This document shows, piece by piece, positions 1 to 46,060 of a stretch of 47,646 bases of DNA. Within the stretch, counting starts at the first letter, position 1; each line of letters opens with the position of its first letter. Position numbers and translations under genes: made by a program. The notes beneath the pieces are model-generated. The model did not search any database. It was not told the origin of the DNA and worked only from the letters and a program-made list of their open reading frames with translations. The DNA comes from a virus. Location of the stretch: positions 1 to 47,646 of IMG/VR virus record IMGVR_UViG_3300025771_000044. One strand, given 5' to 3'.

Positions 1-1
1 T

Positions 2-4989: not shown

Positions 4990-5000
4990 GGAGATACAGA

Positions 5001-19016: not shown

Positions 19017-19023
19017 GTTAAGT

Positions 19024-19392
19024 ATGGTTTGGAATGCATCTAATGGGACAATATTTTATACTAGTGAGTTATCTTTAAACACTGCATATACTGCATCTGC
19101 AAATGCAGTTATACTGAATTCTGTTTTTGCAAGTAGTACTGCTGGTTATAATGTAACAGTAGCCACTTTTAATGCTGTTGGCACTATTAATTCAGAAATG
19201 TATTTATCTAATGTTTCTACAAATTCAGTTATATTAACAGCTAGTAATAGTGTTGCATTTTTAGGAGGTGCTGATACTATAAGTTTAAGTAATTTAACAA
19301 GCAATGTTATAAGTGATTCATTAATTGCTAGTGAAGTTACAGTTTCCTCTACACCAACAGACACAACACCTTCCCAAGTATGGATAGGTTAA
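19024..19392 (+). CDS. Small beta-rich protein ending in VWIG, block 1 (122 aa)
   Basis: A 122-residue Ser/Thr/Asn/Val-rich protein of alternating strands (TASANAVILNSVFAS, NVTVATFNAVGTINSEMYL), ending PSQVWIG. The gene at 24916-25191, in the same position of the second block, ends EAAEVWIG after a similar Ser/Thr-rich tail, so the two are likely related in their C-terminus. The weak SD and an ATG eight bases after the previous stop fit a coupled gene. Family not recognised; perhaps a small structural or capping protein for the two large proteins upstream. Confidence 0.6.
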   Translation: MVWNASNGTIFYTSELSLNTAYTASANAVILNSVFASSTAGYNVTVATFNAVGTINSEMYLSNVSTNSVILTASNSVAFLGGADTISLSNLTSNVISDSLIASEVTVSSTPTDTTPSQVWIG

Positions 19393-19408
19393 TAGGAGTT
19401 ATACGCTA

Positions 19409-21739
19409 ATGTCATTAATAAAAGTAGACCTAAGTTTAATTGACACTACCTCTGCTAGTGATGGTGATGTATTAAAGTACGTTAGTGCTAACTCTAAGTT
19501 AGAGTATGGAGAAGCTAGTACTGATAACAATACTTGGGTAAATGCTAATGACTATAGTACCTATACAACGGTATCTACGTTAATAGACACTGTTAACGCC
19601 AATGTAGACGCATTACCTGATTCAGCAGCTAATGACTATAGTACCTATACAACGGTATCTACGTTAATAGACACTGTTAACGCCAATGTAGACGCATTAC
19701 CTGATTCAGCAGCTAATGACTATAGTACCTATACAACGGTATCTACGTTAATAGACACTGTTAACGCCAATGTAGACGCATTACCTGATTCAGCAGCTAA
19801 TGACTATAGTACCTATACAACGGTATCTACGTTAATAGACACTGTTAATGCCAATGTAGATGCTTTACCTGATTCAGCAGCTAATGACTATAGTACCTAT
19901 ACAACGGTATCTACGTTAATAGACACTGTTCAGTCAAACTTAACTTCTGTAATAGGTGCCTCTCCAACTGCTTTAGATACTCTTGCTGAAATTGCTGCAG
20001 CCTTAGAAAACGACGCTAATATTGCAGTTACTTTAACTAATCAAATAGGTTTGGTATCCAGCAATGTAGATGCTTTACCAGATAGTGCTGCAAATGATTA
20101 TAGCACATATACAACCGTAACAGCAAATACATATGATACGTATGTAACTCTTACAGGTTTAGTAGATACGGTACAAGATAATGTTGGAATAGTTAGTAAC
20201 AATGCTAAGTTTAACTCCTCTAATTTTTGGGGATACTATGCTAATGAAACTGAATTAAACTCTAATTATATTCATGGTGGGTTTGCTCATGTTCATGGTA
20301 CCGGACGAGCATACTTTGGACACGCAGGAAGTTGGGTTAAGCTTGCTCATGAGTCTGAAATAATCGAAGATAATAATACATTTGTAAATTCAAACGATCA
20401 TGTAACATACACAACTTTAACAGCAAATACATATGATACATACGTTACTTTAACAGGACTAATTGACACAGTTCAAGATAATGTATCTGCAGGAAGTACA
20501 GATAATAATACATTTGTAAACTCTAATGATCATGTAACTTATACTACTCTTACAGCCAATGATTATAACACCTATACTACATTATCCTCTTTAATTGATA
20601 CAGTTCAAGACAACGTTGCAGCTGGAGGAGGTTCTGGAGGTTCCTCAGGGGCATCTGGTGGAATTCCTATAAGTGATACTTTTACAACCTCTTCAAACTC
20701 TAATACTTTTTCTCTTAGTGAAAGCGTAACTAGTGCAAATTCTTTAATTGTAAGTTTTCAAGGGATAAACCAGGTTCCAAATGAAGATTATGTCATCTCA
20801 GGATCTACTCTTACTCTAATAAATACAGCCCCAATTACAGCAGGTTTAACTTTAGAAGTAAGGCACTTAAAACTATTAACAGTAACGAGTACTGATGCAA
20901 CAATTTCTACAGCAAATGGAGTTACTACGTCGTTTACTTCTCCATTCGATACTAATGACCCTAATGATGTTATAGTAACTGTTGATGGTCTAATGCAGAG
21001 ACCAACTACAGATTATTCTATTTCTGGAACTACTGTTACTTTTGGTTCTGCTCCTCCAGATGGTACATCGGTAATGATTCGACATGCAGCTGTTACAGCG
21101 AATTATCAATCTTCTAATTCTCAACAGTCCTCATTTTGGTTAACTCACTCAAACCTTACAGAATTACAAGCGAATTATATACCTGGTGCTTTTTCAGTTG
21201 TGGACTCAGAAGCTTCAGGATATTTTGGATACGGTGGTTCTTGGAGTAAAATAGGTAAGCATTCTGATATAAATTTAATACAAGATAACGTAGATTCTCT
21301 AACTTCTACAGTTGACAGTACTAATGCAAACCTGTACAATACTTATAATACAGTCACTGCAAATACTCATAGCACCTATGTTACTTTAACAAGCTTAATA
21401 GATACAGTACAAGATAATGTAGCTGCTGGAAGCGGAGGCGGAGGTTCTCAAGAGTCTTGGAATACTATATCTTCTAATATAACTCTAACTTCCAATACTA
21501 ATTATTTTATAGATTGTGCAAATACAGCAATTACAGTAACTCTCCCTTCGCCTGTATATGGAGCTAAAATTAAACTTATTGATGCCACTGGCTCCGCTAA
21601 CACTAATGCTATAACTATTAATAGTGGAGGTAATAAGATTATGGGAGATGCAGGAGATATGACTGTTTCTACACATAGAGCAGCATTGACCTTAATCTAT
21701 TTTAATAGTGATTATGGCTGGTTACTAGGAGAGCTATAA
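19409..21739 (+). CDS. Modular tail fibre with 84-bp tandem repeats (776 aa)
   Basis: An N-terminal SLIDTTSASDGDVLKYV attachment segment is followed by more than four near-identical 28-residue units containing DYSTYTTVSTLIDTVNANVD (encoded at 19547-19930), then the IGASPTALDTLAEIAAAL repeat, more YDTYVTL/DTVQDNV stalk units, a NFWGYYANETELNSNYI module present twice (about 20220 and 21135), two SGSTLTL/DYVISG modules, and a C-terminal TLTSNTNYFID...GWLLGEL beta domain like those ending the 13645 protein and near the end of the 8177 protein. This is clearly a trimeric fibre shaft with a terminal domain. The repeat copy number may set stalk length. AGGAG ahead of the ATG supports the start. Confidence 0.85.
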   Translation: MSLIKVDLSLIDTTSASDGDVLKYVSANSKLEYGEASTDNNTWVNANDYSTYTTVSTLIDTVNANVDALPDSAANDYSTYTTVSTLIDTVNANVDALPDSAANDYSTYTTVSTLIDTVNANVDALPDSAANDYSTYTTVSTLIDTVNANVDALPDSAANDYSTYTTVSTLIDTVQSNLTSVIGASPTALDTLAEIAAALENDANIAVTLTNQIGLVSSNVDALPDSAANDYSTYTTVTANTYDTYVTLTGLVDTVQDNVGIVSNNAKFNSSNFWGYYANETELNSNYIHGGFAHVHGTGRAYFGHAGSWVKLAHESEIIEDNNTFVNSNDHVTYTTLTANTYDTYVTLTGLIDTVQDNVSAGSTDNNTFVNSNDHVTYTTLTANDYNTYTTLSSLIDTVQDNVAAGGGSGGSSGASGGIPISDTFTTSSNSNTFSLSESVTSANSLIVSFQGINQVPNEDYVISGSTLTLINTAPITAGLTLEVRHLKLLTVTSTDATISTANGVTTSFTSPFDTNDPNDVIVTVDGLMQRPTTDYSISGTTVTFGSAPPDGTSVMIRHAAVTANYQSSNSQQSSFWLTHSNLTELQANYIPGAFSVVDSEASGYFGYGGSWSKIGKHSDINLIQDNVDSLTSTVDSTNANLYNTYNTVTANTHSTYVTLTSLIDTVQDNVAAGSGGGGSQESWNTISSNITLTSNTNYFIDCANTAITVTLPSPVYGAKIKLIDATGSANTNAITINSGGNKIMGDAGDMTVSTHRAALTLIYFNSDYGWLLGEL
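19547..19930 (+). repeat. 84-bp in-frame tandem repeat, 4.6 copies
   Basis: Units start at 19547, 19631, 19715 and 19799, each 84 bases (28 codons), with a fifth partial copy from 19883 that keeps the sequence for 48 bases. The first three units are identical by eye; the fourth differs at a few positions near its end (AATGCC for AACGCC, GCTTTA for GCATTA). The near-identity at DNA level, beyond protein conservation, indicates recent expansion by slippage or recombination. Confidence 0.93.
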
Positions 21740-21817
21740 ATGGCTACATCATCTATCACAGCATCTACACCTTACCAATGCTCTGCTAAAATAACCTGGA
21801 CAGAATCTCAGGCTTAA
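21740..21817 (+). CDS. Possible 25-residue micro-protein
   Basis: An ATG directly after the previous stop codon opens a 25-codon frame, with AGGAG (21727-21731) eight bases upstream inside the end of the fibre gene. The peptide starts MATSSITASTPYQC and contains a WTESQ stretch. No family is recognised. It could be a real coupled small gene, a leader for the following gene, or the remnant of a longer gene lost by deletion. The following gene starts 12 bases after its stop. Confidence 0.3.
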   Translation: MATSSITASTPYQCSAKITWTESQA

Positions 21818-21829
21818 TAGGATTGAAAT

Positions 21830-22252
21830 ATGGCTATAACTAAAATACACCCTTCTACTATAAGTTCAACCGGAGCTACTGACGGTCAGCTGCTAAGCTT
21901 TTCTACTGTTAATGGAGTGGCATTTGTAGATAATACTAACTATGTACAACTCGTAAGAAAAGGTGAATTAAGTGCAGTTACAGGAAATGCTAGATGGTAT
22001 GCTCCCTCTGCGATATCTATTAGTAATGTAGTTGCTAGAGTTAGTACTGCCCCTGTAGGTGCTGCACTGTCAGTAGATATAAAACGAAATGGTGTGTCGA
22101 ACAATATTGTGACTATCGCTGATGGGGGATCAGAGGCTTCAAATGTAACTACTATTACTGCAAATGAAGGTGACTATTTTACAATAGACGTATTGAGTGT
22201 GGGCAGTAATACTGCAGGTTCTGATTTACACGTGATTATGAAGTATACTTAG
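21830..22252 (+). CDS. Stand-alone YVQL beta-domain protein, block 2 (140 aa)
   Basis: A short N-terminus (TKIHPSTISSTGATDGQLL) of the type that begins other fibres here is joined to a domain homologous to the C-terminal 105 residues of the cupredoxin-like protein at 14849-16468, sharing NARWYAPSAIS, VSTAPVGA, ANEGDYFTID and SNTAGSDLHV motifs. The domain is all-beta by appearance and lacks catalytic signatures. It heads the second five-gene block, taking the place of the 14849 gene but without the cupredoxin part. A virion attachment or capping domain is the best inference. Confidence 0.7.
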   Translation: MAITKIHPSTISSTGATDGQLLSFSTVNGVAFVDNTNYVQLVRKGELSAVTGNARWYAPSAISISNVVARVSTAPVGAALSVDIKRNGVSNNIVTIADGGSEASNVTTITANEGDYFTIDVLSVGSNTAGSDLHVIMKYT

Positions 22253-22261
22253 GAGATTAAA

Positions 22262-22549
22262 ATGACTGATGAAGAAAGAAATGCAAAACTAGCAGCAGTT
22301 TACTCAACAGATAGCGGTTGGATATATAGCAACGTTAGTTCAAATTCTTACAATGAACCAAATGATCTTAGAGAACATTTACAAACTCTTAATTTTGAGG
22401 GACTAGCTAAAGATGAACCTGAGATAATGTTTTTCAAAATTAGAATTAGAGATGACGAGGGAAACATATTAGGACCATATTTTTGGTTTAACGGAGAAAT
22501 CAATAGTTCAGATTTTGAGTTAGTTCATTCGTACACAGGGAGCGGCTAA
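22262..22549 (+). CDS. Small hypothetical protein, block 2 (95 aa)
   Basis: A 95-residue acidic protein with AGGAG before the ATG and a one-base overlap with the next start (TAATG). Its C-terminal half looks like a beta-hairpin domain (EIMFFKIRIRDDEGNILGPYFWFNGE). I recognise no family. It occupies the position of the equally long protein at 16480-16767 in block 1, though sequence resemblance is weak. Likely partner of the downstream large proteins by position only. Confidence 0.6.
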   Translation: MTDEERNAKLAAVYSTDSGWIYSNVSSNSYNEPNDLREHLQTLNFEGLAKDEPEIMFFKIRIRDDEGNILGPYFWFNGEINSSDFELVHSYTGSG

Positions 22550-23439
22550 TGATAGTTAAACTAATTTACTCAGGAGCTTCAGCAGCTAACATTATAGCAG
22601 ATATAAATACTTGTATCGAAGGCGGAATTACAACTTCTTTAGACGGAAGTATAAAACGTCCTTCAAATTTAAATGCATCCTCTACTGAGTCTATCGTATA
22701 TGGAACAAATTATGCAAATACAGGAACAGTATATAATGATAATGCAACTGGAGATCACTGGGAGAAGAAGCATAATTTCTATTCAGGAGTAACTAATTGG
22801 TTTAGTTTAGAGCTTGATAGCGGATATTTAAGTATACAGGGTGGCTTAAACTACGCAGATCAAACAGTAAAAAATACAACTCTTACTAGCACGGGTATAG
22901 TTCTTGATACAACATCAAACACAGATACATATTGGTTAGGTGTTACTGATGATATATTTTACTTTTACTCAAGAGGTAGTTATGCTATAGCCGCTGATTT
23001 ACTTAAAAATGGTCTAAACTCTGTGTTCACAGAAACAACTACTTTTGGTATATTTGCTGGAGGATTAACAGCAGGAAGCGGTATCTTACCTCATACGTAT
23101 GATTCAGAGTTTAGACAATATCAAGAACAGTCAAGCTTATATCTACACAGTTTAGGCGCTACTAAAGGAGTTTTAAGCGCAAGTGACTCTTCAGTAGCTT
23201 ATGTACCTTTAGACACCGTTTCTGTAGGTACACGAACTAAAGGTATGTGGCAAGTATTTGGTATGCGTTCAGCATATCCTTCACCTGTTTTTACTGGTGG
23301 AGGTATACTTCAAGATTCAGATGATAAATACTATTTTACAACAGGAATTAGTTTATATTCCGTTGAAACAAACGCAACGTTGGTAGCTACAGGTGGTGAT
23401 ACAGTAACAGGCAATCAACTTATTTTAGAAGGAGAATAA
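22549..23439 (+). CDS. Putative virion protein A, block 2 (296 aa)
   Basis: Starts on an ATG overlapping the previous stop. The N-terminus (IVKLIYSGASAANIIADIN) is a strand plus helix similar in pattern to 16769, 17868 and 23441. The body is beta-rich with many Tyr, Gly and Ser residues, and near the C-terminus a DDKYYFTTGISLYSVETN stretch resembles the final strands of the related proteins. It is the shortest of the four. No catalytic motif is visible. A virion surface function is inferred from neighbours. Confidence 0.65.
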   Translation: MIVKLIYSGASAANIIADINTCIEGGITTSLDGSIKRPSNLNASSTESIVYGTNYANTGTVYNDNATGDHWEKKHNFYSGVTNWFSLELDSGYLSIQGGLNYADQTVKNTTLTSTGIVLDTTSNTDTYWLGVTDDIFYFYSRGSYAIAADLLKNGLNSVFTETTTFGIFAGGLTAGSGILPHTYDSEFRQYQEQSSLYLHSLGATKGVLSASDSSVAYVPLDTVSVGTRTKGMWQVFGMRSAYPSPVFTGGGILQDSDDKYYFTTGISLYSVETNATLVATGGDTVTGNQLILEGE

Positions 23440-23440
23440 A

Positions 23441-24916
23441 ATGTTATGTAAAGTGATTATTGATGGAGACGCAGATGCAGCCTCTCAACACAGATCTTTG
23501 ATGAAAGCTATTAGAGCAGTTGCAACAGCTTCGGCAAACTCAACTCCTTCAGCTACAGGACATTTAGCTAGTAATAGTACAGCTGATTCTTATGAACTTA
23601 TAGATACAGTAATTGATAATACAGTTGCAGGAGGTTGGACTGAGTTAACGACCAGCACAACTCTTGTAGCAGACTCAGCTAGCTCTGCTATTACTACACC
23701 TGAACTATTAACTCTATATACCACAACAGGAAAGTCAGGAAGACCCTACTCTTTTATTCATTTTTATGGCGGTGCATATGGTGCGAACTGGATCGATACA
23801 ACATACTCTAACTCAATTGGAATTGTGTGGGGAACAGGAACTTTAGCACAAGCTGAATGGGATTATAACTATGATAATACTGGAGATGAAAATTGGAATA
23901 GATGGTTTAACGTTAGCTCTCAAAATGGTAAGAAAAATACTGGTGAGGTATGTTTTCTACCTGCACAGAGTGTAGGAACAGGTAATACTACTCCAACAAC
24001 CGCTGGATTTTTAAAGTCTTATGATGATTATGCCACGTATAATAGAATATACTATATTGCAGCTAATTCTACAGCTATAACAATAGCTGCTTGTGGGCAA
24101 GACGGCACAACAGAGCATACGCTGAGTACAGAAGGGGCTGACTATTACCAGAGTGGTGGGTTTTTTCACTGGGGAGAACGTACTAACACAGCTTGGGAAG
24201 ACAACTATAATGATAATCCATATTGGGTAGCTATTTGGCAATTAACTAATAATGAACAAACTGCTTATAAAGATGGAGGGTACTGGACTAGAATGAGAAG
24301 AAAAGACGTAAACGGAACTGTAACAGGACCGTTCTCTCATTTTGATTTTTGCACTGCTCAACATGGTAACTATAAAAGAAATCCTTTGAATGGTGCATTT
24401 AATGGGACTTCAGTTTCTTATCATCAGTATGAATCTGATTATTATAGGAGAGACACATACTATCCAGGTAATGTGACCAGTGTTACACAAGGATTATGGA
24501 TTCCAGCAACTACTGAAGCTCAACTATTAAATGATATATTTGGTACCACCGTTAATAATTATGCTATGTATCACAGTGATTATAGTTTATGTAGTCCTCT
24601 AATGACTGGAGCGTATTCAAGTGCTTATCTAGTAGCGGGAGGACTAATGTACTCTCCTGAAGCTGATTCAAGCACAGGAGCACAGATACCCCCAGCTATT
24701 CCGATTAGGATTGAGTCTGAAGGTGGTACAAACGCAGGTGGGTATATGAAAAATATATTCAATAGCTGCCAAGTAAGAGACTATACGTACTTAGACTCTA
24801 TACGAATAAAAGAGGCTGTTTATACATTTAATGGATCTAAGTATATTTGTTTAAATAGAGGCACATATAGAACTAATTCTAACATTGAGCAAGATCTATT
24901 CTGGATTCATGTCTAA
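23441..24916 (+). CDS. Putative virion protein B, block 2 (491 aa)
   Basis: The longest of the four related proteins, 491 residues, starting LCKVIIDGDADAASQHRSLM (strand then helix) with GGAG upstream. It is rich in Tyr, Trp, Asn and Thr. The C-terminus carries IPIRIESEGGTN and GSKYICLNRGTYR, comparable with the PITIMSPLRG and DKYVLYHSYG pair in 17868-19016. Six Cys residues are scattered through the body. No enzyme signature recognised. Probably a host-contact or decoration protein; it overlaps the next gene by one base. Confidence 0.65.
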   Translation: MLCKVIIDGDADAASQHRSLMKAIRAVATASANSTPSATGHLASNSTADSYELIDTVIDNTVAGGWTELTTSTTLVADSASSAITTPELLTLYTTTGKSGRPYSFIHFYGGAYGANWIDTTYSNSIGIVWGTGTLAQAEWDYNYDNTGDENWNRWFNVSSQNGKKNTGEVCFLPAQSVGTGNTTPTTAGFLKSYDDYATYNRIYYIAANSTAITIAACGQDGTTEHTLSTEGADYYQSGGFFHWGERTNTAWEDNYNDNPYWVAIWQLTNNEQTAYKDGGYWTRMRRKDVNGTVTGPFSHFDFCTAQHGNYKRNPLNGAFNGTSVSYHQYESDYYRRDTYYPGNVTSVTQGLWIPATTEAQLLNDIFGTTVNNYAMYHSDYSLCSPLMTGAYSSAYLVAGGLMYSPEADSSTGAQIPPAIPIRIESEGGTNAGGYMKNIFNSCQVRDYTYLDSIRIKEAVYTFNGSKYICLNRGTYRTNSNIEQDLFWIHV

Positions 24917-25191
24917 TGGCTTATGACACAGCAAATGCAAATGCAACCACATCAATATTTAATTACTTAGCTAACTCCAATCCTACTATTGGAATAACAC
25001 TACTTGGAGTTACTAATAACTCTTCTCAAAATGTAAGCAGTTTAGCAGTAAGCACTGTAGGCCTTTTTAATGATGCGTCATTTACTCCTACAATTACATA
25101 TACACTGCTTAAAGATGATGCATTTGCTGTCGCTGCAGCAAGCGGATCTGGAAGTTCTTCTTCAGAAGCTGCTGAAGTTTGGATTGGTTGA
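24916..25191 (+). CDS. Small beta-rich protein ending in VWIG, block 2 (91 aa)
   Basis: A 91-residue protein starting on TAATG. It is Ser/Asn/Thr-rich with alternating hydrophobic strands (TIGITLLGVTNNSSQNVS) and ends after a Gly/Ser linker in AEVWIG, the same ending as the 122-residue protein at 19024-19392. It closes the second block, and a promoter-containing gap follows. Function not recognised. Confidence 0.6.
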   Translation: MAYDTANANATTSIFNYLANSNPTIGITLLGVTNNSSQNVSSLAVSTVGLFNDASFTPTITYTLLKDDAFAVAAASGSGSSSSEAAEVWIG

Positions 25192-25234
25192 TAACTTTTT
25201 ACTAGATTTAAAATAGTAATTAAAATTATAAAAA

Positions 25235-25263
25235 TTGACTAGCAGGCGTAATTTATTTAAAAT
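25235..25263 (+). promoter_or_regulatory. Candidate sigma70-type promoter
   Basis: TTGACT (25235-25240) and TAAAAT (25258-25263) are 17 bases apart in the 97-base AT-rich gap 25192-25288. Transcription would begin near 25270, with the SD AGGAG (25279-25283) and the ATG of the LamG protein at 25289 shortly after. The rest of the gap holds no other structure I can see. The spacing equals that of the other three candidate promoters. Confidence 0.55.
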
Positions 25264-25288
25264 ATAGTAAAAGTAAGCAGGAGTAATA

Positions 25289-27877
25289 ATGGTACAATCA
25301 CTTTCATATTTAGCAGCTAATACTAAGCTTGGAACTGGGGACGATAGCGTTAGCCTTGTAGCTAGCGGTAACTCTTTTGTCATCTCTGACGGAAGCCAGT
25401 CGTCAACAATCGCTGCCGGAACTGATTTAGGTTCTGGAGGTGCTACTGTATATGCTAATTCTCAAGCTTTTCCTCTTACAGGACTAAGTGCTGGAGACTT
25501 TGCTTTTGCCTCAAACAACAATACTCTATATATGACAAATGGATCTGGTTGGTATAAAATTGCTCTTGTTAATCAAGATCCTAGCATCAGCCTCAGTGCA
25601 ACCTCTGTTACTACAGAACCAGGTTCTAATACAGCAAATGTTACCTATACTATTACTGAGCCTGAAGGCACTCCTACAACCATTACAATATCATATGACT
25701 TTACAGCTAATGCGAATATTGTTCATGATAGTTCTAACACAAGCCTCTCAATAACTAATACTGATTCTAATACGTATACTGGAACCGTTACAGTTACTGT
25801 ATCTGATGGTGTTAATACTGGCGTAGGAACAATATCTCTTACTAATTCAGTAGTTATCATAATAGATAATTCAAACTACACTTCACTACTTGTTAAAGCA
25901 TCTGGTAATGGTGGTACAAATACAAGTATTACTGATTCATCAACTAATGCTCACACCGTTTCTGTATATGGTAACACTCAAGCTACTTCGTTCAGTCCGT
26001 ATCGTGCTAGTGGATATAGTGCTTATATTGACGGGAGTGGTTCTGATTGGTTAAAAACAGATACACATGCAGACTTTACTTTTGGAACTGGAGATTTTAC
26101 AGTTGAATGTTGGTATTATCCCATATCAAAAGCTCAGAGCTATGCTCGTATTCTTCATTTTGGCCCATATTGGCTAAACAACCAAGCGTGGGGAATATTA
26201 GATAGACATGATTCATACAGTACCAAAATCACTGTACAAGCATATACCGGAGCTGTATTAGAGTCTTCAACAACCGTTACTGATGGTGAATGGTATCATA
26301 TTGCGTTAGAAAGAAGTGGTACCACTATCACTCTGTATATAAATGGTATTGCAGAAGATACCTATAATATTTCTACAAATAATTTCCCTGATGCTTCATC
26401 TACAAGTTATCTGAATATTGGTAATGTAAGTAATGGTCCTAATCTTTCGGAAGCAGAAGCAAATGGATATGTTAAGGATGTTCGTATTGTAAAGGGAAGC
26501 GCTGTATATCAAGGCAACTTTACTCCACCCACTTCTTCATTAACAGCAGTCACAAATACAGTATTTCTTGGATTGACTAAGCCATATTTTACAGATGCAT
26601 CTGGTCAAGGTCATACATTAACTCCTAATGGATCGATCACGCATGAACCAGTTTCTCCATATGATTATGTAGTCTATTCTGCTTCTACTCATGGTGGTTC
26701 AGTATACCTTGACGGGACTGGTGATAGTTTGGGTATTGCTGATGATGCATCGTTAGAATTAGGAAGTGGTGATTTTACACTAGAAGGTTGGTTCTATGCA
26801 ACAGCTGCAGGCCCCGCTGATAATGTAATTGTTGCGAAATGTTCTCCTTCATATGCTCCTTATTGGGTTTCTTTCTACGGTGGCGCCACAATGCAGTTTT
26901 GTTCTTCAAGTACTAATAGTGGTTGGGATATAGCTAATAATGTGCAGTTTGGTTCAGCTAAGAAAAATAATTGGAATCATTTTGCGGTTAGTAGATCTGG
27001 TACTTCAATTCGATTGTTTCTAAATGGGGTTTTGGGTAACACTGTTACTTCTTCTGCTGCGTTAACTGATCACACTAGTCCGTTTACTGTAGGAGGCCAA
27101 TATGGTGGGGCTAATCCTTTTACCGGATATGTTTCAGATATACGTTTAGTCAAAGGTACAGCGGTTTATACTGCAGCTTTTACTCCTCCAACCGAATCAT
27201 TAACTGCAATTACAAATACATCAGTATTGATAAGCGGAACTGATGCTAAAGTATATGATGCGTCACAATCTTCCGGTACATTAACTTTATATGGAAATGC
27301 TGCTTCATCAACTACTCAAACAAAAAATGCATCATCATCAGTATATTTTGATGGTACTGGAGATTGGATACATCTACCTGCATCAGAGCAATTAGAACCT
27401 CTAGGTAACGATTTTACATTCGAATGGTGGTGGTATCCTACAACTCTCAGTCAAAGACAATGGTTTTTCCATTCTGCCACGGATTATTGGTTAGGAGTAG
27501 ATTTTCAGACTACAGTCGGAAGAGGACTTGGGATGTGGGCCAGCAGTAACGGCTCTAGTTGGAATTTGCTTCATTGCGATGCTGGTGGTAATGGAATATC
27601 AAATACTAATCCAACATTAAATGCTTGGAATCATATCGCATATACTCGAAATGGAAACACCTTTACACTTTGGCTGAATGGAACATCAATTGTATCTGTT
27701 GGTAGTATAACTTCAAGCATTGTTAACAGATCTACAGAATCGAAGGTAATAGGTTCATGGGCTCAATCAAATCATCAATTACCTGTAGTGGGTTATATTG
27801 AAGACTTCAGAATTACTAAGGGTCTTGCACGTTATACAACATCATTTACACCACCAACAACAGAATTAGAGGGATAA
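25289..27877 (+). CDS. Adhesin with three LamG/concanavalin-like domains
   Basis: The 862-residue protein has an N-terminal attachment region (LGTGDDSVSLVASGNSF), an Ig/cadherin-like beta domain at about residues 100-195, then three LamG (concanavalin A-like) domains at about 200-420, 430-640 and 645-860. Each LamG domain shows the same series: YLDGTGD-type strand, SGDFTLEGWFY, WNHFAVSRSG, LFLNG, and a YVSDIRLVKGTAVY strand followed by FTPPT. Domains of this type bind glycans or proteins, so host-surface binding is the likely role. The head-tail connector at 41540-42805 contains a related domain. AGGAG precedes the ATG and a promoter lies just upstream. Confidence 0.85.
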   Translation: MVQSLSYLAANTKLGTGDDSVSLVASGNSFVISDGSQSSTIAAGTDLGSGGATVYANSQAFPLTGLSAGDFAFASNNNTLYMTNGSGWYKIALVNQDPSISLSATSVTTEPGSNTANVTYTITEPEGTPTTITISYDFTANANIVHDSSNTSLSITNTDSNTYTGTVTVTVSDGVNTGVGTISLTNSVVIIIDNSNYTSLLVKASGNGGTNTSITDSSTNAHTVSVYGNTQATSFSPYRASGYSAYIDGSGSDWLKTDTHADFTFGTGDFTVECWYYPISKAQSYARILHFGPYWLNNQAWGILDRHDSYSTKITVQAYTGAVLESSTTVTDGEWYHIALERSGTTITLYINGIAEDTYNISTNNFPDASSTSYLNIGNVSNGPNLSEAEANGYVKDVRIVKGSAVYQGNFTPPTSSLTAVTNTVFLGLTKPYFTDASGQGHTLTPNGSITHEPVSPYDYVVYSASTHGGSVYLDGTGDSLGIADDASLELGSGDFTLEGWFYATAAGPADNVIVAKCSPSYAPYWVSFYGGATMQFCSSSTNSGWDIANNVQFGSAKKNNWNHFAVSRSGTSIRLFLNGVLGNTVTSSAALTDHTSPFTVGGQYGGANPFTGYVSDIRLVKGTAVYTAAFTPPTESLTAITNTSVLISGTDAKVYDASQSSGTLTLYGNAASSTTQTKNASSSVYFDGTGDWIHLPASEQLEPLGNDFTFEWWWYPTTLSQRQWFFHSATDYWLGVDFQTTVGRGLGMWASSNGSSWNLLHCDAGGNGISNTNPTLNAWNHIAYTRNGNTFTLWLNGTSIVSVGSITSSIVNRSTESKVIGSWAQSNHQLPVVGYIEDFRITKGLARYTTSFTPPTTELEG

Positions 27878-37031: not shown

Positions 37032-37412
37032 ATGTCAGAACTTAAAAGAATCCCAGTAAAATATGTAAGAGATTATATTAAAAAACATTACAGCTACGGT
37101 AAGAGTTGTTATATATGTAAATCTACTAGTAATTTAGAGCTTCACCACTTATATAGCATTTCTGAACTATGGAACAACTGGGTAGATAAAAGAAATCTAA
37201 ATATAACAGAATATGAAGAGATAAAAGAACTACGAGTAGAATTTTACGAAGAACACTTAGATCTACTCTCTTCTGAAAACCTTTATACACTATGTAAAGC
37301 TCATCATGAGAAGTTACATTCTATATATGGTCAAAGATACTCAAATTGGCGATCAGAAAAAGTTAAAAATTGGATTGAAGCTCAAAAGAATAAGTTTGGA
37401 GAAACTAACTAA
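37032..37412 (+). CDS. HNH endonuclease
   Basis: A 126-residue HNH protein: Cys26-x2-Cys29 (CYIC) begins the zinc site, ELHHLYS has His38-His39, Asn83 lies in SSENLYTLCKAHHEKLH with Cys88, His91, His92 and His96. Two Cys pairs plus the HNH residues give a complete beta-beta-alpha metal finger. HNH proteins beside terminase and portal assist DNA packaging in HK97-like phages; a homing enzyme is less likely because it fits in the gene order with a one-base overlap to the portal. The only Met in the protein is the first residue, and the region before it lacks a strong SD. Confidence 0.88.
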   Translation: MSELKRIPVKYVRDYIKKHYSYGKSCYICKSTSNLELHHLYSISELWNNWVDKRNLNITEYEEIKELRVEFYEEHLDLLSSENLYTLCKAHHEKLHSIYGQRYSNWRSEKVKNWIEAQKNKFGETN

Positions 37413-38713
37413 TGGCAGGCCCTATATCTTGGATTAGAGAAAAACTAACTAGAGAAAAACTAAATCCAATTCAACCTTATCTACAAAGCCAAGAGCCCTT
37501 AATTCAACCTGATAGTAATGTAGATTTTAGAGCTGCTTATGATCAAGTTGAAATTATTCATCGCTGTATAGAGATGATTATAAACTCAGCAGTAGGTATA
37601 CCATTTGCAGTTGAAACAGGTCCAGGTGGAGGACCAGTTAAAAAAGTTAATAAACTTTTAAACGAGAGACCTAACCCCTTTGAGGATAAAATAAGATTTT
37701 TACGTCGTGGACTTTTTGATTTTTTAATTGACGGAAATGCATTTTTCTATTATGATGGTAATGATATATATATTTTACCTGCGAACGATATAGAAATCGA
37801 AACTGACGCAAAACGATTTATAAAAGGTTATACATATCTACTAAGCGGTGCAGGATCTAGTTACGACTCAGGATTTGAACCATTTGCAGGATCATCTACA
37901 GGTAGAAACAGAAGCCCTTCTACTGGAGTTAAACAAGAGACTAAAATTTACTTTGATGCTTCAGAAGTTATTCACGTAAAAGATGACAATGAAGAAAGTA
38001 TTTTTAGAGGTAAAAGTAGATTAAAAAGTTTAACAGATTTAATTAATCTATACTACGCTCTTTTAAAATTCCAAAGACAGTTCTTTAGGAATAATGCAAT
38101 TCCAGGGGTTGTTTTAACTACTGATAATGTAATGAGTGCAAAAGTAAAAGAAAGATTACTACAATCTTGGAGATCTAGTTATACTACTATTTTTGAAGGT
38201 GCTAGAAACCCTGCAATTTTAGATGGTGGACTAAAAATTGACAAGTTTAGTGATATAAATTTTCAAAACTTAGATTTTGAAAACAGTGTTGAAAGATTAC
38301 AACAAGATATGGCAAAAGCTTTAGGTGTACCATATGTCTTGTTAAAAAGCGGGAACAACGCGAATATAGCGACTAACCAGGTTTTATTTTATGAACATAC
38401 AATAATTCCAATTGTACAACAATTTGCTAGTGCGTTCGAACACTTCTTTAACTCAGTTAAGGTTAGACCAGAATTAAGAAATATACCTGCTTTACAACCA
38501 GATTTAAAAACACAAGCACAATATTTTACTTCTTTAGTAAATGCTGGAATTATAACTGCGGATGAAGCTAGAGAAAAGCTATACTTCCCTAAGTTAGAAG
38601 AAGAAGCTACAGCTAATATTAGAATACCTCAAAATATAGCAGGAAGCGCAATAAGTCCAGAACTAGGCGGTAGACCTCCTGAAGAAGATAAAACGGAGTT
38701 AACAAATGAATGA
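37412..38713 (+). CDS. Portal protein
   Basis: The 433-residue protein matches HK97-family portals, the dodecameric ring at the head vertex for DNA passage. Supporting segments are VEIIHRCIEMIINSAVGIPF near the start, the FLRRGLFDFLIDGNAFFYYD core, DASEVIHVKDDN, the long helix FQRQFFRNNAIPGVVL, LDFENSVERLQQDMAKALGVP, and the C-terminal LVNAGIITADEARE. A Gly/Ser/Arg loop at about residues 150-172 (SSTGRNRSPSTG) appears inserted in the wing. It overlaps the HNH gene by one base and the protease-capsid gene by eight. Confidence 0.92.
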   Translation: MAGPISWIREKLTREKLNPIQPYLQSQEPLIQPDSNVDFRAAYDQVEIIHRCIEMIINSAVGIPFAVETGPGGGPVKKVNKLLNERPNPFEDKIRFLRRGLFDFLIDGNAFFYYDGNDIYILPANDIEIETDAKRFIKGYTYLLSGAGSSYDSGFEPFAGSSTGRNRSPSTGVKQETKIYFDASEVIHVKDDNEESIFRGKSRLKSLTDLINLYYALLKFQRQFFRNNAIPGVVLTTDNVMSAKVKERLLQSWRSSYTTIFEGARNPAILDGGLKIDKFSDINFQNLDFENSVERLQQDMAKALGVPYVLLKSGNNANIATNQVLFYEHTIIPIVQQFASAFEHFFNSVKVRPELRNIPALQPDLKTQAQYFTSLVNAGIITADEAREKLYFPKLEEEATANIRIPQNIAGSAISPELGGRPPEEDKTELTNE

Positions 38714-41465
38714 TAAAAAATTCTTTATAAATAGTGATGATATCGAAATTAAAAGTAAAGATAGCACCACTAAGAGTAAATTTAAGATTGCAGGATATGC
38801 AAATACTAAAGATAAAGACAGGGTTGGCGATATCGTACTTCCAGAAGCATGGGCAAAAGGAGTAGAGAACTATCGTAAAAATCCTGTATTACTTTATCAG
38901 CATGATCATGGTAAACCGATTGGTAGATCAGATGTGGTTAGAGTCGATAAAAAAGGAATCTTTGTCGAAGCTTCTGTCTCAGATGCGGCAGAAAAACTAC
39001 ACGGTGTACAAACATTAATTAACGATGGAGCACTAAAAAGCTTTAGTGTTGGTTTTAGAGTTAAAGATGCGGATTTTGATAGAAACTCAGATACTTTCGT
39101 AGTTAAAGATCTAGAGTTGTTAGAAATCAGTGTAGTGAGCGTACCTGCCAATCAAGAGTCTTTATTTAGTATCAGAAAAAGTTTTGAATCTGATGAAAGC
39201 TATGAAGAATTCAAAAAACAATTCATATCTGAAAAAACTAATGAGGAGAATGAAATGACAGAAGAAGCTCAAGTAGAAGAGATTACTGAAGAAGTAATCG
39301 AATCTTCAGAAGAGGTTAAAACTTCAGAAGAAGTAGTTGAGAGTATTGAAGAGAAATCTGAAGCAGTAGTAACTGATGCAGAATCTGAAGAACTAGATAC
39401 TAAATCATCTGCTCCTGAAGTAGAAACTATTAAAGAAGAGGATGAAGAAGCTAGTTATGAAGATCCAACTAAACCTATCCCATTCTATAATATGTTAAGT
39501 GCTGAGACATCAAAACTTAATAACAACGACTTTGTTAAAATGAACGGGCAAAGATATGTAGTGACTAAAATTGCTACAGCCGAAAGCCCATCTTTTATAT
39601 TTAAAGAGGTTGACATTAACGGTAATTCCAGCGATAATACAATTAAAGTTGATGCTGTTAATTTATCTGTGGTCAATACATGGGATCTTAATACTAAGTA
39701 TGATGTTGTACTAGTAGATCATGTAGATGCTACAAATTATACAGATTCAGACAGAGAGTCTATTAAACAACAATTCGAAGAATATGTTAAAGCCTCTGAA
39801 CTAGATCTTTATTCTATGAAGAATAATGAAAAGATTAAAACAAGTGTTGAGTTACAAACAACATTAAACAACTTGATCAATCTAAAAAGCATGGAAGCCG
39901 GCTCATGGAGTGACACACACTATGGAATGGCTCAAAGATTCACTAAAACTATTAAAGCTCTAATCAACCTTCCAGAGGAAGAAGATAGAAACTTCGCTTT
40001 AAGTTTACACGGTTATCTAACCGAAGATAAGGAGAACACAAAAATGGCAACTCAAGATATTGGTGATACCATTAATGTAGAAACACAAACCCCTGCGGCT
40101 CCTGCTGTTGAAGAAAAAGCAGTCGCTCAGGTTTCAGAGCCAAGAGTAGCTGAACTAGTTAAAGAAGCTGGCACAGTTATTGAAAAGCAATCTGAAGAAA
40201 AGATTAAGGCTAATGACGAAGATCATGAAAATTCTCGTCTTGCTGAAGAACTTGCTGAACTTAGAGGTCAGATGAAAGCTTATAAAGAGCAGATTCATTC
40301 CTTTACCGAAAGCAAAATGATCTATCAGGAGAACACTCGTAGAAATACTCAGTTCTCACAGAAAGATCTATCAAATGCATATTTCCTAGCTAAAGCTCTA
40401 CGTAAGAGCCCAATGGATACAAAAATGGGTATGCGTATGAAAGACGTTGTTGCTGGTAACTCAGTTGATGCTTTCGAAAACGCCTTCTCAACAAACGTAT
40501 ACGAAGAAATGAGACAGCAGCTTGTTGTAGCTCCTCTTTTCAATCGTATTGAAGTAAATGCACGTCAATTCTCAGTTCCAGTAGCTGATGAAGATACAGA
40601 TGATGCAATTGCACAATTCGAGTCAGGTACATATACAACTGATACAAATAGCTCTGTACCAACAACTAACCAGCATCAGATTAAATCTGTTGAACTTACA
40701 CCACATAAGTTCATGGTTAAGACTCACATTGCTAAAGACGAAGAAGAAGATACAATTCTTCCGCTAGTTGACTTCTTACGTTCAGCTGCTACTCGTCGTC
40801 TAGCTCGCTTTACCGATAAGGTTCTACTTCGCGGTACAGGTGCTCTTACTGGGTTTGATGCTACTGAGTCACTCTCAGCTGGTTCAACTACAGGTGTCGG
40901 CGGTGTTGCTTCACCAATTAAAGGTGTTGTCAACCACGCTGGTGCAGTTAGTGCCCTTAACCTCTATCGTGGTGTTGGCCTAACAGGTGCCTCCGCTAAT
41001 ACTGCTAAAGCTAATGCAGCTACTGTTGCTTCAGCTCGCGGTCTAATGGGTAAATACGGACTTGCTCTAGGTGAAAACCTAGTACTTCTAACATCAGTTG
41101 AAGGTTATAATGCTTTCGTAACTGAGACTGATTTCCAGACAGTTGACAAGTTCGGTGCTCAGGCAACATACCTAACAGGTTCACTTGGAGCCATCTATGG
41201 TATCCCACTATATATTTCAGAGTTCATGGACTCAGTTTCTGGCACAGCCAACAACCGCGTCCTTGCTACAATGATTTATAAGCCTGGATTCCTAATCGGT
41301 GAGCGTCGTGCAATGGAAGTTGAAAGTGAATATCTTCCAGAGCGTCAGGTAACTGCTATGTATATGTCAACTCGTTATGACATGAAGGCACTTACAACTG
41401 TCGCATCTGCAGCACTAAGCTCAACTTATTCTTACGCTGTTAACATCCTAAGTGGTGCTGAGTAA
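38706..41465 (+). CDS. Prohead protease-scaffold-major capsid fusion
   Basis: A single 919-residue frame without stop. Residues about 25-160 are an HK97-type prohead protease: YANTKDKDRVGDIVLPEA, His66/His68 in YQHDHGKPIG, Ser114 in KSFSVGF and ELLEISVVSVPANQ. Residues about 170-250 are very acidic, followed by a domain at about 255-440 with PIPFYNML and QRYVVTKI segments that I do not recognise. From Met447 on come a delta-domain-like coiled coil (to about 560) and the HK97-fold major capsid protein. SD-preceded ATGs at 39255 and 40044 allow shorter products. It overlaps the portal gene by eight bases and is followed by a strong terminator. Confidence 0.88.
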   Translation: MNDKKFFINSDDIEIKSKDSTTKSKFKIAGYANTKDKDRVGDIVLPEAWAKGVENYRKNPVLLYQHDHGKPIGRSDVVRVDKKGIFVEASVSDAAEKLHGVQTLINDGALKSFSVGFRVKDADFDRNSDTFVVKDLELLEISVVSVPANQESLFSIRKSFESDESYEEFKKQFISEKTNEENEMTEEAQVEEITEEVIESSEEVKTSEEVVESIEEKSEAVVTDAESEELDTKSSAPEVETIKEEDEEASYEDPTKPIPFYNMLSAETSKLNNNDFVKMNGQRYVVTKIATAESPSFIFKEVDINGNSSDNTIKVDAVNLSVVNTWDLNTKYDVVLVDHVDATNYTDSDRESIKQQFEEYVKASELDLYSMKNNEKIKTSVELQTTLNNLINLKSMEAGSWSDTHYGMAQRFTKTIKALINLPEEEDRNFALSLHGYLTEDKENTKMATQDIGDTINVETQTPAAPAVEEKAVAQVSEPRVAELVKEAGTVIEKQSEEKIKANDEDHENSRLAEELAELRGQMKAYKEQIHSFTESKMIYQENTRRNTQFSQKDLSNAYFLAKALRKSPMDTKMGMRMKDVVAGNSVDAFENAFSTNVYEEMRQQLVVAPLFNRIEVNARQFSVPVADEDTDDAIAQFESGTYTTDTNSSVPTTNQHQIKSVELTPHKFMVKTHIAKDEEEDTILPLVDFLRSAATRRLARFTDKVLLRGTGALTGFDATESLSAGSTTGVGGVASPIKGVVNHAGAVSALNLYRGVGLTGASANTAKANAATVASARGLMGKYGLALGENLVLLTSVEGYNAFVTETDFQTVDKFGAQATYLTGSLGAIYGIPLYISEFMDSVSGTANNRVLATMIYKPGFLIGERRAMEVESEYLPERQVTAMYMSTRYDMKALTTVASAALSSTYSYAVNILSGAE
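39242..39257 (+). promoter_or_regulatory. Internal SD and ATG before the acidic middle domain
   Basis: TGAGGAG (39242-39248) lies six bases before an in-frame ATG at 39255 (Met184), just after the protease domain. Initiation here would give a protease-free scaffold-plus-capsid product of 736 residues. It may instead be the fossil start of a once separate gene. Confidence 0.5.
40044..41465 (+). CDS. Major capsid protein from internal start (nested)
   Basis: An in-frame ATG at 40044 (Met447 of the long frame) follows AAGGAG at 40029-40034, nine bases away. It gives a 473-residue product of ordinary length for an HK97-type capsid protein with its delta domain. The N-terminal part is acidic and helical (VSEPRVAELVKEAG, RLAEELAELRGQMKAYKEQ). 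The fold core starts near TNVYEEMRQQLVVAPLFNRIEV, with HKFMVKTHIAKDEEEDT (E-loop/spine region) and the C-terminal MYMSTRYDMKALTTVAS. Phe codons here are mostly TTC (14 of 17 by my count), against 4 of 12 in the protease part, as expected for the most abundant protein. Confidence 0.75.
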   Translation: MATQDIGDTINVETQTPAAPAVEEKAVAQVSEPRVAELVKEAGTVIEKQSEEKIKANDEDHENSRLAEELAELRGQMKAYKEQIHSFTESKMIYQENTRRNTQFSQKDLSNAYFLAKALRKSPMDTKMGMRMKDVVAGNSVDAFENAFSTNVYEEMRQQLVVAPLFNRIEVNARQFSVPVADEDTDDAIAQFESGTYTTDTNSSVPTTNQHQIKSVELTPHKFMVKTHIAKDEEEDTILPLVDFLRSAATRRLARFTDKVLLRGTGALTGFDATESLSAGSTTGVGGVASPIKGVVNHAGAVSALNLYRGVGLTGASANTAKANAATVASARGLMGKYGLALGENLVLLTSVEGYNAFVTETDFQTVDKFGAQATYLTGSLGAIYGIPLYISEFMDSVSGTANNRVLATMIYKPGFLIGERRAMEVESEYLPERQVTAMYMSTRYDMKALTTVASAALSSTYSYAVNILSGAE

Positions 41466-41539: not shown

Positions 41540-42805
41540 ATGCTTGTAACGCTTCTTGAAATAAAAGAGTTTTTAAAAATTAAGTTAGATAATGATTCCG
41601 AAGACGATAGATTAAATTCTATTAATACTTATGTATCGTCTCTCGTAGAGTCTTATTGTGGTAGGGTTTTTTCTTCTAATACCTATACTGAATATTTTGA
41701 TGGAGGAATATCCTCCGTCTTTATTAAAAATCCACCAATTATTAGTGTTAATGAAGTATCTCAGTATCTTGGAGAGAAATATTCAGCGCTCGGAGGACCA
41801 GGTCCTTCTGGAGAGCAAATTGAATTAGAAGGTACAAGTCATACAGTTTCTACTATTGGAAATGCAAAAACAACTAAAAGAATTAAAAAATATGGAACAT
41901 CTAGTCTAACTTTAGATGGGTCTGGTGATTATTTAAGTATTGGGTCTTCAACTGATTTTGACTTTGATTCAGAGCCTTTTACTATTGAACTTTATACTAG
42001 ACCAAAAGCTTTAACTGATCATTGTTTGGTATCTAGAGTAGATGACTCTTCTAACTATTGGGAACTATCTTATGACGAAACTAACGGTATATATTTTAAA
42101 ACAGTAGAGGATGGAACTGAAACCACATATATAGAAGGTGCTACCTTAACAGCCAATACATTTACACATATTGCAGTCGTAAGAAGTGATTCTGAGTATA
42201 AAATATTTAAAGATGGATCTCAGGTTGGAGATACAGTCACATCTTCTAATGCAGTACCAACACTAAGTTCTTCTGTTGAAATTGGTAGAATTAATTTAAC
42301 ATCTAACAAAAATTATAAAGGTAATTTAGATGAACTAAGAGTTTCTTGGATAGATAGATATTCCGCTAACTTTACTACTTTAACAAATCCTTTTAGTTCT
42401 GATGAAGATACTAAACTGTTATTACATTTTAACGAAGGACAAAACAAAACAGAAATTATAGACTTCTCTAGAAAAGTAAATGAGTATATGTGGTACGCTG
42501 AAACTGGAGAGATAAATTTTGATGCTGGTAGAGGCGGAGGAACTCCTCGTTTAGGATTCTTTAATCCTAGACAGTTTCAAAACTTTGCTAACGGTGTAAA
42601 AGTTAATTATACTGGAGGCTATGTAAGTGTACCTGCAGATTTAAAACTAGCTGCACTAGAAATGGTTAAAGTACTTTACAAAGGTAGATCAGGTGTTTCT
42701 TCTGCTAGATTAGCTGGTGATGATTCTGTAGCACATGAGCTTTCTATGGATGGATTTCCTCCTCAAATAAGACGAGTGTTAAATCTTTATAGGTTGCCTA
42801 TATAA
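41540..42805 (+). CDS. Head-tail connector with inserted LamG domain
   Basis: The ATG at 41540, preceded by GGAG right after the terminator T-run, is the likely start (421 residues). Residues 1-80 (LLEIKEFLKIKL, SLVESYCGR, KNPPIISVNEVSQYL) and 311-421 (FANGVKVNYTGGY, VPADLKLAALEMVKVLYKGR) together form a gp6-like connector of HK97-type phages. Between them, at about 105-305, sits a LamG domain: SLTLDGSGDYLSIG, EPFTIELYTRP, FTHIAVVRSDSEYKIFKDG, YKGNLDELRVSWIDRY and TKLLLHFNEG. The insertion lies between the two parts of the connector, so the LamG would project from the neck. Ordinary connectors of this family are about 100 residues long. Confidence 0.82.
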   Translation: MLVTLLEIKEFLKIKLDNDSEDDRLNSINTYVSSLVESYCGRVFSSNTYTEYFDGGISSVFIKNPPIISVNEVSQYLGEKYSALGGPGPSGEQIELEGTSHTVSTIGNAKTTKRIKKYGTSSLTLDGSGDYLSIGSSTDFDFDSEPFTIELYTRPKALTDHCLVSRVDDSSNYWELSYDETNGIYFKTVEDGTETTYIEGATLTANTFTHIAVVRSDSEYKIFKDGSQVGDTVTSSNAVPTLSSSVEIGRINLTSNKNYKGNLDELRVSWIDRYSANFTTLTNPFSSDEDTKLLLHFNEGQNKTEIIDFSRKVNEYMWYAETGEINFDAGRGGGTPRLGFFNPRQFQNFANGVKVNYTGGYVSVPADLKLAALEMVKVLYKGRSGVSSARLAGDDSVAHELSMDGFPPQIRRVLNLYRLPI

Positions 42806-44245: not shown

Positions 44246-44274
44246 TTGCCCGAGTCAACTCCCTATGATATACT
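44246..44274 (+). promoter_or_regulatory. Candidate sigma70-type promoter for tail genes
   Basis: TTGCCC (44246-44251) and TATACT (44269-44274), 17 bases apart, are in the 61-base gap after the neck gene. A transcript start near 44281 leads straight to AAGGTG (44285-44290) and the ATG at 44297. The box pair closely repeats the one at 13599-13627. Confidence 0.6.
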
Positions 44275-44296
44275 CAATTTAAGTAAGGTGAAAAAT

Positions 44297-44755
44297 ATGT
44301 CTCAGAGAAGAGATATTGTAAACTTTGTAGTAGATAACTTAAAATTAATTGACGGGACAGGATCCCCTTTAAGTACTACATATAGATTCAAATCAGATCT
44401 ACATGAAAATGTTTTTAGAGGGTACAAATTTATTGATGAAATAAATGATTTTCCTTCTATCTACATTGTAGCTGGAACAGAAACTAGAAATTATCAAACT
44501 CACGGTAATACCCAGTCTCAGTTAATTTTAGCTCTTAGAGCGTATATATACGATGAAGAATATGAATTACTAAATGAGCAATATGGTAATTTAACAAGTG
44601 ATATAGAACATGTCATTTATAACTTACCTAAAACTCATTCACATTTTGAAATTTTAGACATTACTATACAGTCTATAAATACTGACGAAGGACTTCTAAC
44701 CCCCTACGGAATTGTAGAATTACAAATCTTAGTTAGTTACGAAGTCACTTTATAA
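44297..44755 (+). CDS. Tail terminator-like protein
   Basis: The ATG at 44297 is chosen because AAGGTG lies six bases before it and because an upstream in-frame TTG at 44246 is part of the promoter -35 box. The 152-residue protein shows the alternating pattern of gpU-like tail terminators: an N-terminal helix (RRDIVNFVVDNLKLID), FPSIYIVAGTETRNY, a SQLILALRAYIYD strand, a helical LTSDIEHVIYNLP, and ending YGIVELQILVSYEVTL. Such proteins cap the tail tube and join it to the neck. The tail tube gene follows 12 bases later. Confidence 0.72.
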   Translation: MSQRRDIVNFVVDNLKLIDGTGSPLSTTYRFKSDLHENVFRGYKFIDEINDFPSIYIVAGTETRNYQTHGNTQSQLILALRAYIYDEEYELLNEQYGNLTSDIEHVIYNLPKTHSHFEILDITIQSINTDEGLLTPYGIVELQILVSYEVTL

Positions 44756-44767
44756 GGAGATAAATAA

Positions 44768-46060
44768 ATGGCTAATTGCGGTCCTAATACACAGATTAAC
44801 CTTCAGAGAAATACTGAAGTGTTTTGGTCAACAATTGACTTAAATGGTGGTGGTCTTTCATCAAGCATGAAACCTACTAACACATGGAGAGTCGAAGTCT
44901 TGGCTGGTTATGCATTCAACCAGAGTGCTGCTAATCAGGACATCACAACTCTTGAATCAGGTAATACACCTGATAGATCAACCCAAAGATTTAATACATC
45001 AGTTAATCCTGTTGAGTGGAGCTTCACAACTTACATTCGTCCAACAGGAATGATTGCAACTGACGGTTCTGATTCTCAAACTGGTAATTCAAAGCCAGTT
45101 GCAGATTGGTTCTTATGGCAGTCAATGATGTCAAACACTGCACCAGCAGCTAGTGGTGCTGAGACATCATCATGGGAAAACAATGGTATCTTCCATCTAA
45201 AGCATAGAGGTTTTGCAGACGCTGCTGACATTGGTGAGTCATCTAATGCTAACGTTACAGCTCATAGCTCAAACTTCCCATCAATGAATGAATACTCACT
45301 TTACTTTAAAGTTGATAATGTTGTTTATCAGGTTGGTCAGGCTGCTGTTAACGAAGCTACAGTTGATGCTGCTATTGATACAATCGCATCAACATCATGG
45401 AGTGGGTTTGGTACAAACCTTTACGAACTTACAGGTTCAACAAGAGACGAAGCTATCTCAGTATTTGGTGGTACATTGAATTCTGGAACATCAACTGCTG
45501 CTAACTCAACAATTGATGCTAATGGAGCTGCTGGTCAGCACTATCATCCATTTGGTTCTTCAAACGTTGCTGGTTCAGCTACAACAGCTGCCTTCATTAA
45601 GAACCGTCTAAGCTCAATTAATGTTGTATCTGCTGCATCTGGTGCTGCTAAGTCTTATACTTTCCCAGTAACAGGATTAAGCTGGTCTTACAACAACAAT
45701 GCAACATATCTAACACCTGAAGAACTTGCTGCTCTTAATACACCAATTGGTCAGTTCACAGGTTCAAGATCAGTTACAGGTAACTTTACTGCATATCTAC
45801 GTGCAGGAGCTAACCAGTCAGCTGAGTTCCTAAGAGATATTGTTGGTAATACTTCAACTCAAACAACTGGAGCAAGTGCTAACCTACAAATCGGTGGTAC
45901 AACTGCACCATATTTCGCACTAAATATGGAATCAGTCCAGTTTGACTTCCCATCACATTCAATTGATGATGTGGTTGGAATCACAGTTGACTTCCTCGCA
46001 CAGGAAACAGATCCAACTTGCGGTGATGAAGTCACAATTTTTGCTTCAGAAGTAAGCTAA
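44768..46060 (+). CDS. Major tail tube protein
   Basis: A 430-residue protein just before the tail chaperones, with an AAGGAG SD. It contains two strand motifs of similar form, NPVEWSFTTYIRPTG (about residue 80) and GSRSVTGNFTAYLRAG (about residue 335), and ends SIDDVVGITVDFLAQETDP, a pattern typical of tail tube C-termini. The two motifs raise the possibility of two tube-type domains in one chain, as in T5. The position, length and single copy before the frameshifted chaperones make it the tube protein. A noncoding structured stretch follows its stop. Confidence 0.8.
   Translation: MANCGPNTQINLQRNTEVFWSTIDLNGGGLSSSMKPTNTWRVEVLAGYAFNQSAANQDITTLESGNTPDRSTQRFNTSVNPVEWSFTTYIRPTGMIATDGSDSQTGNSKPVADWFLWQSMMSNTAPAASGAETSSWENNGIFHLKHRGFADAADIGESSNANVTAHSSNFPSMNEYSLYFKVDNVVYQVGQAAVNEATVDAAIDTIASTSWSGFGTNLYELTGSTRDEAISVFGGTLNSGTSTAANSTIDANGAAGQHYHPFGSSNVAGSATTAAFIKNRLSSINVVSAASGAAKSYTFPVTGLSWSYNNNATYLTPEELAALNTPIGQFTGSRSVTGNFTAYLRAGANQSAEFLRDIVGNTSTQTTGASANLQIGGTTAPYFALNMESVQFDFPSHSIDDVVGITVDFLAQETDPTCGDEVTIFASEVS

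Follow-up and report, generated by a model that had tools for sequence, protein, structure and literature searches.

The open reading frame (ORF) at positions 41540-42805 of the analysed DNA (IMG/VR record IMGVR_UViG_3300025771_000044, 47,646 nt in total, referred to as the window) is, as judged from its sequence, a T5-type head completion protein, that is, a head-tail adaptor of PHROG 442. A complete LamG module of about 210 residues (99-309) occupies one loop of its portal-attachment domain, between strands that are adjacent in other phages. The simplest reading of the allele pattern among its relatives is recombination that replaces the LamG segment alone. We consider it probable that this adaptor ring displays about twelve outward LamG domains that bind the host surface, with their specificity renewed by recombination. 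The adaptor family, the LamG domain and neck-located binding modules are already known, whereas the location of LamG inside the adaptor ring and its cassette exchange are new; neither a LamG or lectin domain within an adaptor ring nor its cassette exchange was found described in the open-access literature.

Domain Architecture of the Adaptor Protein

The ORF lies between the major capsid gene and the genes for the tail completion protein (TCP), the terminator and the tail tube, as shown in Table 1. It opens with an ATG at 41540, and its stop codon ends at 42805. In several relatives, a stop codon is found immediately 5' of the matching ATG, which supports the start at 41540. All three Pfam matches of the ORF exceed the curated cut-offs.

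Table 1. Features of the portal-to-tail-tube region of the window and parts of the adaptor protein.
Feature	Position	Strand	Basis
Portal protein (ring under connector)	37412..38713	+	PF04860, E 4.5e-51
Prohead protease fused to major capsid protein	38706..41465	+	Peptidase_S78 and Phage_capsid
Head-tail adaptor (head completion protein), 421 aa, containing LamG	41540..42805	+	Pfam and PHROG 442 profiles
Connector core, N part, residues 1-84	41540..41791	+	Phage_connect_1 (gp6-like, PF05135) residues 4-48, E 4e-6; PHROG 442 positions 87-164; AF2
Linker, residues 85-98	41792..41833	+	Alignments
Inserted LamG (concanavalin A-like) module, residues 99-309	41834..42466	+	Laminin_G_3 (PF13385) residues 126-268, E 3e-19; AF2; VIA-align; cyanophage boundaries
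Connector core, C part, residues 310-421	42467..42802	+	Head completion protein (PF24163) residues 350-418, E 4e-6; PHROG 442 positions 172-263
TCP, enlarged to 476 aa	42805..44235	+	Weak match to T5 TCP; T5 gene order
Tail terminator	44246..44755	+	PF23818, E 4e-21
Major tail protein	44768..46060	+	phrog_3575, E 2e-52

The N and C parts of the core match adjoining stretches of the PHROG 442 (head-tail adaptor) profile, and the two halves joined without the middle gave an E-value of 3e-23, as compared with 6e-9 and 7e-12 for the halves separately, which indicates that the middle interrupts one known domain. A profile of the joined core matched LamG-less connectors with an hhalign probability of 99.4% (E 1e-21), and the LamG part alone gave no match to these connectors (probability 1.7% or less). 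Both flanks of the insert align with the LamG-less proteins of T5, Quenya, an Oceanotoga phage, Constance, Roos and the IMG/VR locus L022. The insertion point was located between PHROG 442 positions 164 and 172, corresponding approximately to residues 74-80 of the T5 protein.

A monomer model was built by AlphaFold2 (AF2) with 15 sequences. Its mean pLDDT was 78; the values were mostly 85-92 in the LamG module and moderate, about 72-88, in the connector core, where they fell below 50 at residues 329-347 and 383-400. The N part of the core comprises half of the helix bundle and the first strands of the attachment domain (helices at 5-12 and 22-40, strands at 47-84 in the model), and the C part comprises the remainder of the attachment domain and the C-terminal helices. 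The N terminus opens directly with the connector helices, and the extra domain, LamG, is internal. The predicted LamG part superposes on carbohydrate-binding and LamG/ConA-like domains with VIA-align Z values of 17-18 and an rmsd of 2.7-3.0 over 175-182 residues, where the closest folds are AbnA domain 4 and BACOVA_03559; the CBM40 domains score lower, and with these included the Z values are 16-18. The predicted sharing of a fold with carbohydrate-binding domains does not prove sugar binding, and LamG domains also mediate protein-protein contacts, which is a point against reading the ring as a binding collar. Foldseek and VIA searches with the whole model returned LamG matches only; the assignment of the connector comes from the sequence profiles.

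The initial annotation had proposed a domain insertion into a core connector protein, and this is borne out by the joined-half search and the predicted structure, in which the middle is a distinct LamG fold and the halves belong to one domain. Two of its details require adjustment. The description of the core as gp6-like holds for the Phage_connect_1 match, but the core is most closely related to the head completion protein of T5 and not strictly to HK97 gp6. LamG motifs do lie between the halves, as the Laminin_G_3 match indicates, but the module is somewhat larger than the approximately 200 residues given there, with cyanophage LamG proteins matching it from residue 98/101 to 310.

Two database matches of the LamG module were set aside. 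A match to ACG-2014d over residues 93-417 sits in a structural protein of 6,800 aa, and its extension into the connector part looks spurious. The BFVD match H8ZN75, named "Gp14 neck protein", was considered as a precedent for LamG in a neck and is probably mislabelled. The corresponding record, Synechococcus phage metaG-MbCM1 (L031, JN371769), has two proteins of about 2400 aa automatically labelled Gp14 (1-5567 and 18957-26186), while a gene of 309 aa stands at the gp14 place, between gp13 and gp15.

Family, Gene Order and the Insertion Loop

Three scans of IMG/VR retrieved about 75 contigs, some of them more than once, and gave at least 54 distinct full-length sequences with the same architecture, which are 32% to 100% identical to the window protein. 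LamG is present in all the full-length members found. The gene order of portal, protease-capsid, head completion protein, TCP, terminator and tail tube is kept wherever the contig extends and is the order of T5. No named phage in the collection searched covers 80% of the adaptor protein. When bacterial and archaeal genomes were scanned with the LamG-adaptor family, no relatives were found, nor were any found in viral contigs scanned with the Oceanotoga protein. A full-length structural match was found in BFVD (A0A218MK94, uncultured virus), with 36% identity over 441 columns.

The protease-capsid gene of the window is a single ORF of 919 aa, in which about 430 residues separate the two recognised domains, and the fusion is seemingly kept in relatives. 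The 862-aa protein at 25289-27877 has three LamG stretches and is likely another LamG-bearing virion protein, and the 1272-aa protein at 266-4084 contains PKD domains and matches phage structural proteins.

The loop that holds LamG takes different forms in related adaptors. It is empty in T5, whereas in L113-L121, which are relatives of the LamG-less L022, it holds about 100 residues that belong to no known family, flanked by PHROG 442 positions 162/165 and 171/172. Four of these sequences (L113, L114, L116 and L118) are, in addition, extended at the N terminus by about 110 residues, which gave no Pfam match where tested. It is an evenly balanced proposition that T5-type adaptor rings have, in their attachment-domain loop, a general site for insertions, and that the neck ring of the window family is a twelve-valent, cassette-exchanged lectin collar, so that a core assembly protein has become the place where receptor diversification occurs.

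Exchange of the LamG Module

In 97% of pairs, the core has a higher identity than LamG. Among the 52 pairs with cores at least 95% identical, LamG is at least 85% identical in 42 and less than 60% (50-54%) in 10, and no pair falls between 60 and 85%. In the DNA of L087 and L093, the identity is mostly 95-100% over nearly 4 kb upstream, which holds the portal and capsid genes, is only 52% within LamG and is back at 96-100% in the next gene. The two LamG alleles occur in five contigs from five different metagenomes (L086 and L087 versus L091, L092 and L093), which makes chimeric assembly unlikely. Furthermore, alleles A and B are paired with nearly the same TCP (96% for L085/L100 and 97% for L087/L099) and, in L087/L093, also with nearly identical portal and capsid proteins, and the LamG cassette thus moves independently of both neighbours. 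The pair L085/L094 had suggested a coupled exchange of LamG and TCP alleles, but this reading was discarded, as the alleles reassort.

The main alternative is that LamG serves as a structural clamp, as has been proposed for the peripheral adaptor domain of roseophage R4C, and we regard it as unlikely. In R4C, the peripheral Ig-like adaptor domain touches capsid proteins, with a proposed role in stability (PMC10276861), and the attachment domain of the RcGTA adaptor binds the capsid (PMC7296036). The regional pattern of the L087/L093 alleles is also in its favour; close to the insertion points, LamG is better conserved (74-79% at residues 99-120 and 271-309) than at residues 151-240 (20-47%). 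However, a clamp is expected to change with its partner, and the LamG alleles of L087 and L091-L093 are only 50-54% identical overall, whereas their portal and capsid proteins agree at 98-100%; a partner that stays constant while LamG changes weakens this explanation. An exposed binding module that faces the host would account for the cassette exchange better than a structural clamp would, and the exchange agrees well with the neck adhesin suggested in the initial annotation.

The TCP gene next to the adaptor is variable as well. Its product has 476 aa as compared with 255 in T5, and is only 36-38% identical among relatives (L067-L101) in which the portal, capsid, terminator and tail tube are 93-99% identical. 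Since its alleles reassort with those of LamG, the TCP may be a second swapped neck module; a fold search with its predicted model (pLDDT 66) gave no useful match. This enlarged and hypervariable neighbour, together with the fibre-bearing collars of T4, phiRSL1 and XM1 (PMC11313276), would agree with a docking ring, in which LamG anchors another phage protein, such as a neck fibre or a collar, and not the host. Such a role seems decidedly improbable, because the LamG and TCP alleles are unlinked and no partner gene was found when the neck operon was compared between genomes of allele A and allele B.

Some defence systems sense phage structural proteins, and the exchange of LamG alleles would also be compatible with evasion of an intracellular bacterial defence that senses neck proteins, in place of altered binding outside the cell. 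A lectin-like domain would be an odd decoy, however, and LamG is widespread among the structural and baseplate proteins of cyanophages, which suggests that it acts outside the cell, so that we give this explanation little weight. Least credible of all is a functionless domain tolerated at an exposed loop, even though that loop takes other inserts of about 100 aa (L113-L121) and is empty in T5, because LamG is kept in every full-length member found and appears to be under purifying selection within close pairs, where the median dN/dS was about 0.08 for LamG and 0.05 for the core (computed under dS limits that exclude saturated pairs, and rough, as dS is high in many pairs).

Proposed Function of the Inserted Module

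The explanation we favour is a neck-borne binding collar, whose function is predicted by analogy. The gene product would form the T5-type head completion ring of a long-tailed phage, in which the N and C parts fold together into a helix bundle and a small beta domain for attachment, which holds on to the outer surface of the portal. One loop of the attachment domain bears a complete LamG, and about twelve LamG domains would point outward around the neck. In T5 and DT57C, the adaptor ring has C12 symmetry, and its attachment domain sits on the outside of the portal (PMC11313276, PMC10713586), and the ring of DT57C is a dodecamer (PMC10713586); from this homology we infer the twelve copies and the outward position. 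Ligand binding and a role in adsorption we infer only. LamG would most likely bind glycans or another structure of the host surface, and the many weak contacts could hold the virion before or beside the engagement of the tail-tip receptor. Recombination that swaps the LamG segment would renew this specificity, while the core remains fixed by the need to fit the portal and the tail.

The exchange of a single exposed domain between near-identical genomes is typical of host-contact modules. This, together with the similar behaviour of the neck passage proteins of 936 phages, is why the neck collar is favoured. The authors of the R4C study, by contrast, considered a role in adsorption unlikely for a peripheral adaptor domain so near the head (PMC10276861).

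Exchangeable binding modules are known in tail tips, fibres, tail tubes and separate collar proteins. Here, the putative binding module is built into a ring whose two faces must match the portal and the tail, respectively, and it is replaced while the ring stays nearly unchanged. If LamG binds host surfaces, models that confine adsorption to the tail tip overlook an additional contact close to the head, and the insertion loop would offer a natural place for display on phage necks.

Comparison with Known Systems

The head completion protein of T5/DT57C (p144; AAS77187, T5.148; PF24163/PHROG 442) has the same core by profile, the same position in the gene order and the same portal and TCP neighbours. 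It has 170 aa, with a short turn at the site where the 421-aa window protein has LamG. A0A218MK94 is an earlier database member of the window adaptor family and is annotated just as a "putative structural protein". The structural and baseplate wedge proteins of cyanophages contain the same LamG module with the same boundaries and up to about 38% identity; however, in cyanophages it is part of large tail, baseplate or structural proteins, and in the window phage it is part of the adaptor.

The nearest precedents are the R4C adaptor and the neck passage proteins of lactococcal 936 phages. The R4C roseophage also has an adaptor ring with an extra peripheral beta domain (PMC10276861). That domain is Ig-like, precedes the tube domain at the N terminus and touches the capsid, whereas the LamG of the window adaptor is internal, which sets it apart from the R4C type. 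The evolved Dit of 936 phages is likewise a core ring protein with an inserted carbohydrate-binding module (PMC6669499), but it is located at the distal end of the tail, where adhesion is expected, whereas the window LamG is at the neck.

The neck passage structure of 936 lactococcal phages similarly has carbohydrate-binding modules located at the neck and exchanged between related phages, and a neck module of a 936 phage was shown to bind cells (PMC6669499, PMC10684548). It is formed by a separate collar protein, absent in about one-third of the phages, in which variable modules follow a constant N terminus. The window LamG lies inside the adaptor ORF and so does not belong to this type of structure, in which a separate collar stands beside the connector.
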